A stretch of DNA of 64,000 nucleotides, taken from assembly GCA_963662175.1 (NCBI GenBank), contig OY759216.1, positions 40,627,087-40,691,086 on the forward strand. Reading direction: 5' to 3'. Below, one piece after another: positions 346 through 61,958 of this stretch. This stretch comes from Aradus depressus. Lineage: Eukaryota; Arthropoda; Insecta; Hemiptera; Aradidae. Under the pieces are notes generated by a model. That model had not been told where the DNA came from, made no database searches, and saw only the letters and a list, made by a program, of their open reading frames with translations. The stretch's first letter is position 1. Every line of letters starts with the position of its first letter. Position numbers and translations under genes: made by a program.

Positions 346-391
346 ACTGAGGGCTCATAAAAAAATAAAAAAATATACAAGACTCATTAAA

Positions 392-648
392 TAAGTAATT
401 AGATATATCAGTCAGGTGGTGAATCTTACTAGAGAAGAGGTCAAGGGACACGTTGGAGGATCAGGGACCAGCTGGACACTGATGATACTCCAACGTGTCC
501 CTTGACCTCTTCTCTAGAAAGATTCACCACCTGAAGATGGCAAATTGCCGAAACTAGTTGTGGTAAAAATAAAAAAATATGTTGGACTGATAAATCTAAT
601 TACTTATTTCACAAGTTAGTCCACTACATCTGCCTACCACCAAGTAAT
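392..648. mobile_element. Palindromic inverted-dimer element with hammerhead-like core
   Basis: A 257-bp insertion flanked by a perfect 12-bp direct repeat AGACTCATTAAA (380-391 and 649-660). It is a head-to-head inverted dimer: arms 413-458 and 488-533 match over 46 bp with one mismatch, centred near CAGCTG at about 472. Outer arms 392-412 and 586-607 also match with one mismatch. The right unit carries an extra ~52 bp (534-585) that includes most of a hammerhead-like ribozyme; the left unit lacks exactly this segment. No ORF. Target duplication and dimer shape suggest retrotransposition by a Penelope-like or similar enzyme, which is inference. Confidence 0.75.
526..564 (+). ncRNA. Hammerhead-ribozyme-like motif (type 1)
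   Basis: Reads as stem I ACCAC, core CTGAAGA, one unpaired T, stem II GGCA/TGCC with loop AAT, GAA, stem III palindrome ACTAGT, H17 = T, then stem I 3' strand GTGGT. Stem I pairs perfectly over 5 bp. The core fits the hammerhead consensus CUGANGA...GAA. Short palindromic stem III is known from retroelement hammerheads that work better as dimers. The extra nucleotide between A9 and stem II is atypical, so activity is not assured. Confidence 0.6.
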
Positions 649-660
649 AGACTCATTAAA

Positions 661-4533: not shown

Positions 4534-5374
4534 ATTTTTGAACTCGTTGAATCCTCCTTTGAAATGATACACAACACACTGTGATTGTAAAAAAGAGAAA
4601 ACATTGTGGAGCCTCCTACCCGAGTGCCTTTACCAAATCGAATTACATGCGACACATAGCGCATTGCTTGAGTAGAACCGTACTTTAAATAAATATCAAG
4701 TTACATTACGATATGTTCAGCCTCCATGGAGGAGCTCGTGGACACATAGAGTACAATTTTAAAAGCTATTATGATGGAAAACGCCAGAATACGTAGAGAA
4801 AGTTCTACACAGAACTGTCAGACAAGATCAAAAATTGTTTTTATATAGATTTATTTATATCTATTTGTGTGTATCTCGTGTTATTTATTATTGATATTAT
4901 AGCATATGGGCTAGTATCATTGAGGGACGTTTGACTGCGCTAGTGAGTCTGACAATAAATGCTTTATACCAAGGGGGAAAAAAATAATAAAAAAATGAAA
5001 CAAGAAAAAGAGAAAAAGGAAATTGTGTTATTGTAGATTTAATCCAACAAAGTAGGTCCAAAGAACCACTGGGAGAGGAGCTCTTCGCCTGTTTTCTGCT
5101 TCACAATGGGCAACATGAGCCAGATACGGTTTGGGGCCTGGCTAGCGTCCAAAAAGGGACATTTAGATCCTTACCACAGCTAGGAGGCATTAATCCACAG
5201 AGGATATCATTGTCAAAGGCAGATCCTAGGTGCTAGGTGTGGAGCCGCTAGCCACTAATGTGCTCAGAAACTGCACTGATCATCTCACTAAGTGAGAGCC
5301 GCACTCAAATGTGAAGAGGAGTTACATAGAAATTAACTCACTAATAGAAACTGGAGTCTGTTTGTTTGTTTTTG
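4534..5374. other. Unassigned sequence with a GC-richer patch
   Basis: 5040-5330 is GC-richer and resembles decayed retroelement sequence, without an identifiable domain. No gene seen. Confidence 0.4.
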
Positions 5375-5918
5375 TGACTCATGGCCGAGCTTCAACATAT
5401 CGCTTTTGTGACTCATGCCGGAGCTTCAACATATCGCTTTTGTAACTCATGCCCAATCTTCAACATATCGCTTTTGTGACTCATGCCCGAGCTTCAATAT
5501 ATCAACTTTGTGACACATGCCGGAGCTTCAACATATCGCTTTTGCGACTCATGCCCGAGCTTCAACATATCGCTTTTGTGACTCATGCCCGAGCTTCAAT
5601 ATATCAACTTTGTGACTCATGCCGGAGCTTCAACATATAACTTGTGTGACTCATGCCCGAGCTTCAACATATCGCTTGTGTGACTCATGCCCGAATTTCA
5701 ACATATCGCTTTTGTGATTCATGCCCGAATTTCAACATATCACTTTAGTGATTCATGCCCGAGCTTCAACATATCGATTTTGTGACTCATGCCCGAATTT
5801 AAACATACCACTTTTGTGACTCATGCCCGAGCTTCAGCATGTAGGCTTTGTGACTCATGTCCGAGCTTCAATATATCAACTTTGTGACTCATGCCCGAGC
5901 TTCAACATATCGCCTACT
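5375..5918 (-). repeat. 34-bp tandem array derived from the SINE-A 3' end
   Basis: Sixteen units start every 34 bases from 5375 (5375, 5409, 5443 ... 5885) with consensus tgactcatgcccgagcttca followed by acatatcgcttttg. The unit equals the terminal segment of SINE-A in reverse orientation (tgactcatgcccgggctttaac...catatcgcc). The array runs directly into SINE-like body sequence at 5919. A 63-codon frame here is only the repeat read through. Confidence 0.9.
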
Positions 5919-6252: not shown

Positions 6253-6535
6253 CTATCGCGGTTAAAGTTCATACTTTACGAATTTTTGTTCCGTTTGTAA
6301 TAATAAAATAAATCAATATGCCACGAATCCGTAGTTATAGAAACATTACACAAAGTTAGCTGACAAAAGTGTAACTACTTTTCTACTGTTTCTTTTGTTT
6401 TATTATTCAGAGTTTTGAAATTTGATATCTCTTCTTTATTGACTAAAAAAAGCAACAACCTTTTTAATTGGTTGTTTTGGGTTGCATTTATTTTTTGTTT
6501 TAACTTCCCTGTGGTATTATGTTGTCTACATTATA

Positions 6536-6627
6536 GGAGACTACAAAACGGGAAAAATAGAAAAGAGGAGAGAGTGTTCTGTGTAAAGGTCGGTATAAGA
6601 AAGTTCTCTTATGGCCACTTTACAACA
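6536..6627. mobile_element. TGTGATGTGG-family MITE, one arm
   Basis: Matches the right arm of the palindromic MITE best seen at 30854-31079: gagagagtg.tctgt, ggtataagaaagt and tatggccac. The other arm is missing. Confidence 0.55.
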
Positions 6628-7700: not shown

Positions 7701-7746
7701 CACAACTATATTTCGGGACTTTCTTACGTCCCTTCATCAGGTTCCA
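7701..7746 (-). ncRNA. Hammerhead-ribozyme-like motif (type 3)
   Basis: On the minus strand: GGAAC, canonical CTGATGA, one unpaired A, stem II GGGAC/GTCCC with an 8-nt loop, GAA, short ATAT, A, GTTG. Stem II pairs perfectly; stem I pairs for only 3 bp (AAC/GTT). The host element's boundaries are not clear. Confidence 0.5.
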
Positions 7747-13242: not shown

Positions 13243-13810
13243 TATACACCATGATATTATTATGAAGATGGCTGATGTAGTGAGAGGTGACTATTTCACA
13301 GGTTGTAAAATGATACACCATGATATTATTATGAAGATGGCTGATGTAGTGAGAGGTGATTATTTTACAGGTTGTAAAATGATACACCATGATATTATTA
13401 TGAAGATGGCTGATGTAGTGAGAGGTGACTATTTCACAGGTTGTAAAATGATACACCATGATATTATTATGAAGATGGCTGATGTAGTGAGAGGTGACTA
13501 TTTCACAGGTTGTAAAATGATACACCATGATATTATTATGAAGATGGCTGATGTAGTGAGAGGTGATTATTTCACAGGTTGTAAAATGATACACCATGAT
13601 ATTATTATGACGATGGCTGATGTAGTGAGAGGTGACTATTTCACAGGTTGTAAAATGATACACCATGATATTATTATGACGATGGCTGATGTAGTGAGAG
13701 GTGATTATTTCACAGGTTGTAAAATGATACACCATGATATTATTATGAAGATGGCTGATGTAGTGAGAGGTGATTATTTCACAAGTTGTAAAATGATACA
13801 CCATGATATT
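13243..13810. repeat. 69-bp minisatellite, open in frame on both strands
   Basis: About 8.2 copies of a 69-bp unit (atacaccatgatattattat... gttgtaaaatg). Because 69 is a multiple of three, a plus frame (13121-13834, 237 codons) and a minus frame (13181-13804, 207 codons) both stay open, giving 23-residue repeats (MIHHDIIMKMADVVRGDYFT + GCK on plus). Unit differences in the plus frame include synonymous GAC/GAT and TTT/TTC plus a few replacements (K/T, G/S). No signal peptide, start context or homologous domain supports a real gene. Confidence 0.9.
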
Positions 13811-13834
13811 TTTAAATTAGATATTTTGGATTAG

Positions 13835-25004: not shown

Positions 25005-25495
25005 TTAAAATAAGTAATACCATAGTATCAATCCAACTACATATATATATTTTATTTTTACCATAACTAGTTTCGGCAATTTGCCATCTTCAAATGGTGA
25101 AATTGAACATAGACCAAATATAAGACTAGAATATACGAATTAGATATGTTTTTGCCAGAGATCTTGTGGAAGTTCATTGTAAATACTACTGAATAGAACA
25201 TTTAGAACGAGTCAAAAATTTCCATTATATTTATATAAAAGACACAATATATTTTGCTGGTTAGAGCATTGTCAAGTGTACACGATGCAGACTTATGACT
25301 GGTGGTATTATTTTGAAAACAGTCAAGATAGAGGGTGGGAGGAGGGGGGGGGGGGGGGGGAGGGGAAGATATCTCAATATTAACCTATTACCTATGTCAC
25401 AATATTAACTATATCTCAATATATTGTGTATTTTATATAAATATAGTGGAATTTTTGACTCGTTCTAAGTGTTTTATTCAGTAGTAGAATTTACG
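25005..25495. mobile_element. Hammerhead-like element region with large inverted repeat
   Basis: The segment 25005-25110 matches the right unit of the 392-648 element on the minus strand (gttggattgata...tttcacc). Just to the right, 25178-25257 and 25417-25495 form an imperfect ~78-bp inverted repeat (ctactgaatagaaca... / ...ttattcagtagtag) around a spacer with a 17-G run at 25344-25360. It may be another inverted dimer; a flanking duplication was not found. Confidence 0.5.
25060..25098 (-). ncRNA. Hammerhead-like motif (type 1, mutated core)
   Basis: Minus strand: ACCAT, TTGAAGA, T, GGCA/TGCC, GAA, ACTAGT, T, ATGGT. Stem I has changed from ACCAC/GTGGT (copy at 526) to ACCAT/ATGGT, a compensatory change that preserves pairing. 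The first core base is T instead of C, so it is probably inactive. Confidence 0.5.
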
Positions 25496-32438: not shown

Positions 32439-33347
32439 TGTAACGCTAGTTATTAGTGCTACTTGCTATTCTAATTTAAATTATATTAATAATAGTTATA
32501 TACAATAACGATTATTAGAGGACCGGGTTATGTATGACTTATAAATAAAATAATTACTTTAAAATAATTTGTTACATTTTTCTTTTATTTTAAATTTCAT
32601 CATGACACATTTTTTCATGGGTTAGTATCACATAAAAATTACAGACATAGAGATTTTTTTTTTTTAAACACACATTCAACTAAACCTGCGGGGCTTGCAT
32701 GCTGTATTGAGTTGATGATCGATGATTTCGTTTTGTACCACTGATGAGATGGGATTGTTGGTAGACCTCTGACGTCCTCTCCTGATTTTTGTTAGTCATT
32801 CCATCATGAAACAGCCATTCCTCATTTCCTAATTATTCGCCTCTGGATGTCTTTACCAGTTGATCTTCATTATTACGGGATACACACACACTTTTTCTTC
32901 TATGTCCTCAGACAATCAAACTTACTCCACTGCACATCTTTCCACAGATCCCTCCACAGACACCCTCTCACATCTCACTCTGAACAACGACTCCTTCCAC
33001 GAGGGGACAGACCACTTCTCTCTTGTTTTGGATTCAGCTCCGTCATTGGCCCACAATTTTTACAGCCTTTAGCACTAAACATCTGGGTTTTTTTATATCA
33101 CTTTCATATTCCCGTATACAATCCTAGTTGCTTACATTTATAGTTAACTAATTATTAGCCTAACATTTCATTTTATGACATAATTGAAATAAATGATTTG
33201 ATATATTTTGAAACTATATCGACCCTGGTACAAATCGATTTGATAACCCCCAGTAACCTTCCTTAGGTCTACTAAACAGATTGTATTTACTTATTTTATT
33301 TTCCATTTCTTAAATATTACATGTAATGGACAATATAGAACGTTACA
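32439..33347 (-). repeat. 3' LTR
   Basis: 909 bp, TGTAACG...CGTTACA. It appears identical to the other LTR except in one T/A run near 32652-32668. Two short plus-strand frames inside are duplicated in both LTRs and are not genes. Confidence 0.92.
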
Positions 33348-36490: not shown

Positions 36491-37398
36491 TGTAACGCTA
36501 GTTATTAGTGCTACTTGCTATTCTAATTTAAATTATATTAATAATAGTTATATACAATAACGATTATTAGAGGACCGGGTTATGTATGACTTATAAATAA
36601 AATAATTACTTTAAAATAATTTGTTACATTTTTCTTTTATTTTAAATTTCATCATGACACATTTTTTCATGGGTTAGTATCACATAAAAATTACAGACAT
36701 AGAGATTTTTTTTTTAAAACACACATTCAACTAAACCTGCGGGGCTTGCATGCTGTATTGAGTTGATGATCGATGATTTCGTTTTGTACCACTGATGAGA
36801 TGGGATTGTTGGTAGACCTCTGACGTCCTCTCCTGATTTTTGTTAGTCATTCCATCATGAAACAGCCATTCCTCATTTCCTAATTATTCGCCTCTGGATG
36901 TCTTTACCAGTTGATCTTCATTATTACGGGATACACACACACTTTTTCTTCTATGTCCTCAGACAATCAAACTTACTCCACTGCACATCTTTCCACAGAT
37001 CCCTCCACAGACACCCTCTCACATCTCACTCTGAACAACGACTCCTTCCACGAGGGGACAGACCACTTCTCTCTTGTTTTGGATTCAGCTCCGTCATTGG
37101 CCCACAATTTTTACAGCCTTTAGCACTAAACATCTGGGTTTTTTTATATCACTTTCATATTCCCGTATACAATCCTAGTTGCTTACATTTATAGTTAACT
37201 AATTATTAGCCTAACATTTCATTTTATGACATAATTGAAATAAATGATTTGATATATTTTGAAACTATATCGACCCTGGTACAAATCGATTTGATAACCC
37301 CCAGTAACCTTCCTTAGGTCTACTAAACAGATTGTATTTACTTATTTTATTTTCCATTTCTTAAATATTACATGTAATGGACAATATAGAACGTTACA
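36491..37398 (-). repeat. 5' LTR
   Basis: 908 bp, TGTAACG...CGTTACA, differing from the 3' LTR only in the T/A run near 36706-36720 as far as I can compare by eye. Confidence 0.92.
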
Positions 37399-39180: not shown

Positions 39181-39189
39181 AAAACAAAA

Positions 39190-39222
39190 ACTACCGGTTT
39201 CGGCATTATACCATAGTCATAA
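39190..39222 (-). ncRNA. Degenerate hammerhead-like motif
   Basis: Minus strand: ATGACTA in place of CTGANGA, T, GGTATAATGCC hairpin, GAA, palindromic ACCGGT. Architecture matches the others, but core bases are lost, so a dead relative at best. Confidence 0.3.
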
Positions 39223-39249
39223 ATTAAGATTTATTATTTTCATAGTTAT

Positions 39250-53190: not shown

Positions 53191-53327
53191 TTAAAGAAAC
53201 AGCTACAAGTAAATATTATTAACATAATTTTGATAACAACTGGTGTTTGTAGAGTTGACCTCAACGTCACACACATATACGTGATGTAGCTAATACAGGA
53301 CTTTCTTATACCAACCACTCTTGTATA

Positions 53328-53491
53328 TGAAAACTGACATTATTGCAGAGATATTGTGAAATAATTCAAATGGACTTGAAAAATAAAACTTGTTTATTTA
53401 AGATGTTGTCTAATTTCACTAACTATATATACATGGGAGTACTTTCGGTATTTCTACCATCCTCAGCCAAAAGCATAAGAGATAAGACTCT
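53328..53491 (-). mobile_element. 164-bp hammerhead-like element, monomer with target duplication
   Basis: Precisely bounded by an 11-bp duplication ACTCTTGTATA (53317-53327 and 53492-53502). Minus-strand order: agagtcttatctcttatgc, hammerhead-like core, atatagttagtgaaattaga, caacatcttaaataaacaag, ttgcaataatgtcagttttca. The same family forms the inverted dimer at 60763-61089. No ORF of its own (the 73-codon frame at 53343 crosses it by chance). Confidence 0.85.
53431..53471 (-). ncRNA. Hammerhead-ribozyme-like motif (type 2)
   Basis: Minus strand: TTTTGG, CTGAGGA, T, stem II GGTA/TACC with loop GAAA, GAA, palindrome AGTACT, C, CCATGT. The core is intact. Stem I is weak (GG/CC plus one pair). 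Compared with type 1, stem II changes from GGCA/TGCC to GGTA/TACC, preserving pairing. Confidence 0.55.
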
Positions 53492-53575
53492 ACTCTTGTA
53501 TAGATCACTTTTCCTCTCTTTTCTCAAAACATTTTATGCTGTCATTACTTTGTATATAATATAAAAGTAATGTTT

Positions 53576-58470: not shown

Positions 58471-59175
58471 GTCTGTCCCTCTGCAGACTTATTAGATGAT
58501 TTTCATTCAATTCTCTTCTTAGTCTCTCGTCTGTATATTTATTAGATGATTTTCATTCAAGTCTCTTCTTAGTCTCTTGTCTGTATATTGATAAGATGAT
58601 TTTCATTCAATTCTCTTCTTAGTCTCTCGTCTGTATATTGATTAGATGATTTTCATTCCATTATCTTCTTAGTCTTTCGCCTGTATATTGATTAGATGAT
58701 CTTCATTCCATTCTCTTCTTAGTCTCTCGTCTGTATATTGATTAGATGATTTTCATTCAATTCTCTTCTTAGTCTCTCGTCTGTATATTGATTAGATGAT
58801 TTTCATTCAATTCTCTTCTTAGTCCCTCGTCTGTCTATTGATTAGATGATTTTCATTCCATTCTCTTCTTAGTCTCTCGTCTGTATATTGATTAGATGAT
58901 TTTCATTCAATTCTCTTCTTAGTCTCTCGTCTGTATATTGATTAGATGATTTTCATTCCATTATCTTCTTAGTCTCTCACTTTATATTGATTAGATGATT
59001 TTCATTCAATTCTCTTCTTAGTCTCTCGTCTGTATATTGATTAGATGATTTTCATTCAATTCTCTTCTTAGTCTCTCGTCTGTATATTGATTAGATGATT
59101 TTCATTCCATTATCTTTTTAGTCTCTCGCCTGTATATTGATTAGATGATTTTCATTCAATTCTCTTCTTAGTTAC
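58471..59175. repeat. 50-bp tandem repeat, about 14 copies
   Basis: Unit tctctcgtctgtatattgat followed by tagatgattttcattcaatt and ctcttcttag, period 50 throughout the array except for one short unit. The last unit returns to the cttcttagttacggacctagtcta phrase of the 125-bp repeat, so the short array seems to have expanded from within it. Confidence 0.92.
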
Positions 59176-60748: not shown

Positions 60749-60799
60749 CATTATAATACCGTTTATTTATATTATTGTCTAATTTCACCAACTATATTT

Positions 60800-60840
60800 A
60801 CATGGGAGTACTTTCGGTATTTCTACCATCCTCAGCCAAA
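60800..60840 (-). ncRNA. Hammerhead-like motif (type 2), left unit
   Basis: Minus strand: TTTGG, CTGAGGA, T, GGTA/TACC, GAA, AGTACT, C, CCATG. The core is as in the 53-kb monomer. Confidence 0.55.
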
Positions 60841-60944
60841 AGCATAAGATATAAGACTAAGTTAATATTACAGAATGTCAGCCTCTCGAGGAACCCATTA
60901 CCCTCCCCTCCTCTGTAATATTAACTTAGTTTTATCTCTTATGC

Positions 60945-60986
60945 TTTTGGCTGAGGATGGTAGAAATTACGAAAGTACTCCCATGT
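60945..60986 (+). ncRNA. Hammerhead-like motif (type 2), right unit, stem II damaged
   Basis: Core CTGAGGA and GAA intact, but the stem II 3' strand is TTAC instead of TACC, so stem II is broken. Confidence 0.45.
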
Positions 60987-61143
60987 AAATATAGTTGGTG
61001 AAATTAGACAATACCATAAATAAACAAGTTTTATTTCTCTCAAGTTCATTTGAATTATTTCACAATATCTCTGCAATAATGTCAGTTTTCATTATAATAC
61101 CGTGTTTTAAATTGATTATTATATAATTATTATCCAATATATA

Positions 61144-61929
61144 TATTTTTTTTTTTTATTTTATTCTATTTGCAATCTATATACAATATATACATAATAA
61201 GCAAATATGTGGTAAAAGAAAAATATAACGTCACTTGATGGGAGAAGCCAGCCAGCGCTGACACTCCCTCGAAAGTTAATTGTCATTATTCACTATCCTC
61301 CGAGAGAAGATCGCGAGGCCACCTCCTGTTCAAGCGGCGGGGAGGATTGTCAGGATGGGAATGAGAGGAAAGGTCTTGTGCGAGAGGATTTGAATGGGAA
61401 GAAAGGTTTCGGTGGAATGATTGGAATCGGGATTTGATTAATTCATTTACAGTGGGAATACTGAGATCTCTGTGTAGGACTTTATTGGTGACATAGAAAG
61501 GAGCATTGACAATTCGTCGGAGGAGTTTGGACTGGAATGCTTGGATACGATTGATGTTGGATTGTTTAGCTGTACCCCAAAGTTCGAGTCCGTAAATCCA
61601 AATTGGACGTATAATGGTCTTGTAAATCGTAAGTTTGTTGTTAGTCGTCAGTTTCGATTTTGGTCCAAGTAGTCGACGTAACAGTCCGTATCTTCGATTC
61701 AGTTCTTGTCGTTTAAGTCGTGTATGTGGGTTCCACGTAAGTCTACTGTCTAGGTAAAACCCGAGATAGCGGACTTGGTTTGAAGAGGGAATGAGGATGT
61801 TGTTAATGATGACGGGAGGACAGGATTGACGGCGTAGGGTAAATGTGACTTGAACACATTTCTGCTCATTTAATTTAATTCTCCAGAGGTTGCACCACCT
61901 CTCTATTTCAGTGAGGTGCTCCTGGAGGA
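61144..61929 (-). mobile_element. 5'-truncated Jockey-type LINE with target duplication
   Basis: Bounded by a 13-bp duplication TATCCAATATATA (61131-61143, 61930-61942). Minus-strand order: truncated reverse-transcriptase frame, ~130-bp 3' UTR, A-rich tail (T run 61146-61158 on plus). Young: the frame is open. Confidence 0.88.
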
Positions 61930-61936
61930 TATCCAA
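61286..61936 (-). CDS. Jockey-type reverse transcriptase, C-terminal part
   Basis: 216 open codons, the C-terminal end of a LINE ORF2. Segments in order: EIERWCNLWRIKLNEQKC (end of the polymerase palm region), VRYLGFYLDSRLTWNPHT (~54-71), IYKTIIRPIWIYGLELWG (~103-120), IQAFQSKLLRRIVNAPFYV (~130-148), then a Ser/His/Pro/Arg-rich tail. Catalytic YXDD lies upstream and is missing, so the fragment cannot act as a polymerase. There is no genuine start: the first two codons come from the duplicated target and the nominal first codon is TTG. Matching decayed copies lie at 7.2, 19.7 and 54.7 kb. A true copy would be several kb long. Confidence 0.85.
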   Translation of the reverse strand: MDILQEHLTEIERWCNLWRIKLNEQKCVQVTFTLRRQSCPPVIINNILIPSSNQVRYLGFYLDSRLTWNPHTRLKRQELNRRYGLLRRLLGPKSKLTTNNKLTIYKTIIRPIWIYGLELWGTAKQSNINRIQAFQSKLLRRIVNAPFYVTNKVLHRDLSIPTVNELIKSRFQSFHRNLSSHSNPLAQDLSSHSHPDNPPRRLNRRWPRDLLSEDSE

Positions 61937-61958
61937 TATATAAATTATAAATTATATA

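Follow-up and report, generated by a model that had tools for sequence, protein, structure and literature searches.

The hammerhead-type motifs described here are very probably minimal type I hammerheads of Penelope-like elements (PLEs), carried in non-autonomous copies made up almost wholly of PLE pseudo-LTR (pLTR) sequence. The kind, a PLE-associated minimal type I hammerhead, is already known and is found here in great number. Minimal type I hammerheads of PLEs were reportedly described by Cervera and de la Pena in 2014 and by Lunse, Weinberg and Breaker in 2017. According to the available text of PMC7761336, PMC7229834, PMC6155905 and PMC6466107, they are scattered through animal genomes in thousands of non-coding copies, lack stem III and loop-loop contacts, and have a palindrome that suits dimers. 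The copies studied here resemble the published ones, as far as these texts go, in their dispersed non-coding nature, reduced stem III, palindrome and link to PLEs; unlike the tandem copies described there, close copies here lie head to head.

The motifs were analysed in a window of 64,000 nt, that is, the whole stretch of DNA under analysis. A strict descriptor (CTGANGA, zero to two extra bases, stem II, GAA, A-to-U stem III, H17 and stem I) revealed five sites, with core position C3 at 531 (+), 60951 (+), 60835 (−), 53466 (−) and 7740 (−), and gave one match in total on 100 order-1 Markov windows. A relaxed scan, in which up to two core changes were tolerated and the palindrome was obligatory, returned exactly the six places named in the initial annotation and nothing more, at a chance level of 0.35 per window (60 simulations), nearly all of it with two core mismatches. 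The hammerhead-type motifs in the window are real and go beyond chance. The sites are as follows.

526..564, + strand: family A hammerhead (stem I ACCAC/GTGGT, CTGAAGA, extra U, stem II GGCA/TGCC, GAA, ACTAGT)
25060..25098, − strand: family A hammerhead, copy A2, with C3 at 25093 changed to U
53434..53469, − strand: family B hammerhead (CTGAGGA, extra U, GGTA/TACC, AGTACT)
60803..60838, − strand: family B hammerhead in the left inverted arm of element B2, matching the strict descriptor
60948..60983, + strand: family B hammerhead in the right arm of B2, a strict match with damaged stem II
7704..7743, − strand: family C hammerhead (CTGATGA, extra A, GGGAC/GTCCC, ATAT)
39187..39225, − strand: family D hammerhead fossil, core broken by two changes (ATGACTA), C3 position 39220

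The conserved core CUGANGA...GAA...NUH with three helices was found at the five strict sites and is lacking at 25060 and 39190. The six places had been proposed to form one family with a single architecture; they belong instead to four families (A, B, C and D), and the architecture is shared by 526, 53431, 60800 and 7701 and lost in the cores of 25060 (C3 to U) and 39190 (two changes). An intact CTGANGA, one extra base, a paired stem II, GAA, a palindrome and H17 are all present at 526-564, 53434-53469, 60803-60838 and 7704-7743, with a stem I of 3-5 bp; at 53431 and 60800 it has just 3 bp, followed by a mismatch. H17 of site 526-564 is U559, and cleavage is predicted after 559. Site 25060 (−) reads TTGAAGA, so that C3 is U, and to judge from this sequence the A2 hammerhead is probably inactive. 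Relatives of the family D fossil mostly carry CTGACGATGGTATAAAGCCGAAACCGGT among the places listed. The fifth strict match, 60948-60983 (+), was absent from the initial list and is the partner of 60803-60838. The compensatory stem changes claimed at the outset were confirmed, with C-G replaced by U-A in stem I between the two window A copies and in stem II between families A and B.

Three of the elements around the motifs could be delimited in the window, together with their target site duplications.

392..648, + strand: family A element A1, a near-palindromic insertion with homology ends and target repeats
380..391, unstranded: left copy of the target site duplication of A1, AGACTCATTAAA, an exact direct repeat
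649..660, unstranded: right copy of the target site duplication of A1, an exact direct repeat
412..534, unstranded: foldback of A1, arms 412-463 and 483-534, 96% complementary
53328..53491, − strand: family B element B1, single-armed, with a long 3′ end
53317..53327, second copy 53492-53502, unstranded: target site duplication of B1, ACTCTTGTATA, an exact direct repeat
60763..61089, + strand: family B element B2, a head-to-head inverted pair, arms 60761-60874 and 60912-61025, 95%
60749..60762, second copy 61090-61103, unstranded: target site duplication of B2, CATTATAATACCGT, an exact direct repeat

A1, B1 and B2 have exact 11-14-nt direct repeats exactly where homology stops, and random placements gave an exact repeat of at least 11 nt between flanks of like size in 6% of cases. 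Target duplications bounding the copies at 25060 and 39190 were looked for and none was found; the 7701 copy is flanked only by A-rich low-complexity repeats. In A1 the left outer end is an inverted short 3′ end and the right outer end a long, tailed 3′ end; counted from A9, the short-end motif lies at +73 and the element end at +112. The 5′ end of B1 is placed 2 nt before the preferred AGTCTTATC site, and B2 stops on its left about 25 nt before the usual short end is reached. Both A1 and B2 are foldbacks. The A1 foldback sequesters the stem I 5′ strand; imposing stems I and II on the complete A1 RNA carries a penalty of 11.7 kcal/mol, against 0 for a 101-nt RNA. The window sites are fossil copies in short interspersed, non-autonomous units, and several of these copies, with changed cores or a stem I tied up in a foldback, look probably dead. 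The proposal of hammerhead-type cores in small retroposed elements is upheld.

Other features of the window were recorded. Two identical 115-codon frames at 32796-33140 and 36847-37191 indicate a segment duplicated about 4 kb apart, and tandem arrays occupy 5370-5913 (34-nt units), 13244-13814 (69-nt units) and 58491-59172 (50-nt units). Matches to microRNA families in the window and in two loci of the source genome (L413 and L548) were below curated cut-offs, the best ones lying on foldbacks, and were taken as artefacts.

The source assembly (698 Mb) was searched with patterns made of core and stem II, using reversed patterns as control. Matches amounted to 786 for family A, 9,741 for family B, 503 for family C and 5,483 for family D (up to two mismatches), and each reversed control gave 0. 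Since the A and B patterns fix the core and stem II, stem I, and very nearly stem III, can serve as an independent test. The palindromic 6-mer of stem III was intact in 87 of 97 A copies and 56 of 58 B copies. Pairs 1, 2 and 3 of stem I form in 86, 87 and 88 of the A copies and in 56, 56 and 55 of the B copies, and pairs 4 and 5 in 79 and 78 (A) and in 17 and 41 (B), respectively. At pair 3, the 97 A copies have C-G (75), U-G (9) or U-A (4), or are unpaired (9). The B sample (58 copies, 55 loci) comprised 15 cut by a tool, 20 picked for a listed pair and 20 picked mostly for being without a pair. B copies tend to start 22-23 nt upstream of the core (17/43), with which window B1 agrees within 2 nt. 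A further hammerhead-like family, CTGACGA[A/C/G]GGCGTAAGCCGAAAC, was noticed in the source genome, with some tens of copies and a variable extra base.

A search of the source genome for GIY-YIG (PF01541) gave 150 scored matches among 1,852 candidates, with open frames of up to 859 codons. Locus L548 contains two head-to-head open frames in which reverse transcriptase (RT) and GIY-YIG lie in one ORF, RVT_1 and GIY-YIG both scoring over cut-off; among 120 listed of its 359 protein relatives, those with a named organism are metazoan, and they are 27-37% identical. Its hammerheads, CTGATGA-U-GAGG/CCTC-GAA-AGCCGGCT, have the extra U and the palindrome AGCCGGCT, with a stem I of just 2 bp followed by a mismatch. 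In locus L549, where stem I has 3 bp, a D hammerhead lies some 390 nt downstream of a GIY-YIG fragment and shares its strand. A PLE in the same genome with RT, GIY-YIG and a like-built hammerhead (L548), together with the D hammerhead beside a GIY-YIG fragment (L549), gave substance to the suggested link to PLEs. The link to an autonomous PLE concerns family D only, through the truncated copy L549, with none for families A, B and C; for family C a relation to PLEs is suggested by likeness alone. Several observations weigh against the PLE reading: Rfam gave no match, the A1 foldback would block the ribozyme, stem I of L548 is that short, ten scanned window frames yielded no PLE protein, families A, B and C were linked to no autonomous partner, the left end of B2 falls short, and a partner end was not found for 51 of the 97 A copies.

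Around L548, a satellite of ~90-nt units is present on both sides of the head-to-head PLE (157-341 and 6381-6601), and the left end of this PLE lies within the 3′ part of its ORF, unlike in A and B elements. The window contains a reverse transcriptase fragment at 61289-61951 (−) (RVT_1, E 4e-5, below the curated cut-off), which bears no resemblance to the L548 PLE protein and which we take to be LINE-like.

The covariance-model check proposed with the motif was negative, as Rfam hammerhead models gave no match in the window, at gathering or at E≤10, nor in a 101-nt search of site 526. The same models at gathering listed none of the hammerheads found by descriptor in eight viral contigs; for one of them the score is 27.2, below the cut-off of 34. 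Because these models overlook the hammerheads of the eight viral contigs, their null result on the window says little. Rfam at its cut-offs misses hammerheads of this type.

One extra base follows A9 at all six window sites, U in five of them and A in family C. The initial annotation regarded this base as unusual, a view contradicted by a viroid precedent (PMC3705267, in its available part) and by hammerheads of viral contigs. According to that source, the (+) hammerhead of CChMVd likewise has one extra base between A9 and G10.1, in this case an A (A10, at the matching place) within a replicating viroid RNA, and trans-cleavage rises 3-4-fold when it is replaced by U (PMC3705267). IMG/VR was scanned with CTGANGA-X-GGC..GCCGAAAC, and matches were counted if stems I and III also form. 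This occurred in 58 of 122 matches with X = U (47 distinct), in 1/18 with A, 0/13 with C and 2/6 with G, and, with no extra base, in at least 107 of 138 among the matches listed. In these IMG/VR counts U is the commonest inserted base, and the extra U after A9 is therefore to be regarded as a natural, recurrent hammerhead variant. The exact family A core had no match in viral contigs, and a looser PLE-like pattern was seen, by eye only, in 10 of them. In the source genome, 70 matches have A, C or G as the extra base. Full hammerheads with a long stem III and an extra U are present in many IMG/VR contigs (loci L001-L118, e.g. L023, L078 and L031), in some cases two or three to a contig, and a complete hammerhead with extra U was also observed in a Verrucomicrobia MAG contig (L156:5502).

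It is improbable that the extra U is kept since A9-U-G10.1 is the start codon of the PLE. An AUG is present at that place in families A, B and D and in L548, but the frames from it are short in the window copies and, as read from its sequence, in L548, whose long frame begins downstream of the hammerhead; family C has A instead, and in viral contigs the frames from the AUG reach 100 codons in none of 44 extra-U hammerheads. Tested in this way, a start-codon reason for the extra U proved weak.

Orientation was counted in the first 100 places listed per family (90 of the 100 for family D), a listing that is not a random sample, with neighbours at up to 1,200 nt. Among these places, close neighbours were head to head in 17/17 cases for A, 29/31 for B and 26/26 for D. 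The two other B pairs were one same-direction and one tail to tail, so that same-direction close pairs numbered 0/17, 1/31 and 0/26, respectively; in family C no close pairs were seen by eye among 100 listed places. Eight of the counted B pairs look as if derived from a single repeated unit. In C1:135346-689141 of the source genome, eight B pairs, all spaced by 69 nt, recur at ~65-135-kb intervals and are probably copies of a larger repeat.

This arrangement bears on the possibility that the elements are non-LTR retrozymes, i.e. tandem hammerhead repeats of ~150-400 nt spreading via circular RNA, which also have type I hammerheads in small non-coding retroposed units (available text of PMC7229834). 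We consider this very unlikely, as neighbours among listed places are head to head and tandem ones rare, an arrangement in tandem repeats of 150-450 bp was not found among the listed places of families A, B and D, and the hammerheads are minimal, not canonical. The idea that a palindromic stem III would serve dimers held as to the palindrome, which most A and B copies retain; the tandem arrangement of dimeric PLE hammerheads or retrozymes was not seen, since close copies pair head to head in the listed places.

The ends of the insertions follow a nearly strict rule. Among 97 distinct A copies (90 loci), 50 have the short 3′ end only, 35 the long one and 12 neither; the short end peaks at +73/74 from A9 (44/85) and the long end at +112 (11/35, range 106-116). 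There are thus two alternative outer ends ~38-41 nt apart, and the tail is confined to one outer end. A pairs combine one long and one short end in all 15 classifiable cases of 17. With a duplication of at least 9 nt, the ends were long-plus-short in 29/30 A insertions (the remaining one long-long) and in 12/12 B insertions, and a cross-locus control gave such duplications in 39/870 (A) and 0/132 (B). With a duplication of at least 8 nt, the long-plus-short combination was seen in 44 of the 46 A copies for which a partner end was found, 51/97 being without one; with at least 7 nt, it was seen in 28 of 29 such B copies, 31/60 (two of them window copies) being without one. Target duplications across the examined insertions measure 9-16 nt. 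Of all by-products of the analysis, the long-plus-short rule is the most useful and the most worth following.

Inverted pLTRs, a tail on one end and a short duplication were found together, in window A1 as well, B1 being single-armed and B2 short at its left end. In the available text of PMC3846280, the pLTRs of Penelope families in Adineta vaga are inverted, one of them carries a 31-nt tail, and the arrangement is mostly head to head; several copies of rotifer PLEs have 8-10-nt duplications, others do not, and the palindromic junctions are ascribed to self-priming. The insertions described here are like these families in their inverted pLTRs, one-sided tail, short duplications, palindromic junctions and mostly head-to-head order; the word hammerhead is not in that part of the account (PMC3846280).

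Foldback MITEs, i.e. non-autonomous DNA transposons with the motif in their terminal repeats by descent, would explain the target duplications at both ends and the long near-palindromes with a common centre in part of family A. Free variation of the family A centres was considered at first and then abandoned, as many have a common spacer around CCAGCTGG; the orientation of this spacer is independent of the long end (L442 vs L479). A MITE origin does not fit a duplication length that is not constant (9-16 nt), ends unequal by a tail of ~38-41 nt, single-armed insertions such as B1, B junctions that vary among insertions, or the same motif in or beside PLEs with RT and/or GIY-YIG. It is already disfavoured and in our opinion scarcely to be expected.

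Two accounts of the inverted pairs were considered. It is quite possible, at somewhat below even chances, that inverted copies arise from self-priming (snap-back) on an antisense template and not from two separate RT starts. Palindromic centres, arms without any differences in 4/28 measurable pairs and the proposal of this route for rotifer PLEs (PMC3846280, in the available text) speak for it. On our reading it predicts equal outer ends, and one long and one short end were found instead. In addition, two B pairs bounded by duplications (L518, 8 nt; L524, 14 nt) have arms nearest to different copies, an outcome that later mutation could equally produce. Both arms were closer to copies elsewhere in 7/14 B and 7/14 A pairs; as later mutation also brings each arm closer to its source copy, this test cannot decide on two templates per insertion. 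One B pair (L510, spacing 76) looks like a nested insertion. The other account, which we advance tentatively and think somewhat doubtful, is that each insertion results from two reverse-transcription starts, one per nicked target strand, with each start site used once and the cDNAs joining head to head; one end would then receive the long tail and the other the short end.

Under the PLE reading, a short hammerhead-bearing RNA would be taken up by the PLE enzyme, reverse transcription would begin at either of two positions, located ~73 and 112 nt from A9 in family A and 92 and 133 nt in family B, and the copy would be inserted where the target is rich in A+T. The ribozyme of a living element would cut PLE transcripts after H17, as a dimer with palindromic stem III or with the help of PLE protein. 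In the Poseidon PLE of Anolis, PAc, the ORF opens at stem II and reverse transcription is initiated 111-118 nt into it; there is an optional tail of 30-40 nt, and both strands of the A+T-rich targets are cut and extended. The PAc hammerhead cleaves only with protein, and cleavage is dispensable for insertion in vitro (PMC11167929). The likeness to PAc extends to the hammerhead at the ORF start, the RT start at 111-118 nt, the 30-40-nt optional tail and the A+T-rich targets; unlike the autonomous PAc, the A and B copies that were read are short and have no long frame at the hammerhead (PMC11167929).

The role of minimal ribozymes has been termed a mystery (available text of PMC7761336). The genome studied here offers more than ten thousand matches to such hammerhead patterns, in several families and many with exact ends and duplications. 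Exact ends and duplications in such number make two questions testable, namely the role of the minimal PLE hammerhead and the building of inverted PLE insertions. The paired, opposite-facing copies record the manner in which such elements insert. If the two starts are true, the cutting and extension of both strands seen in the tube with the anole PLE would be carried into a genome, and a long-noted oddity of PLE structure would be explained.
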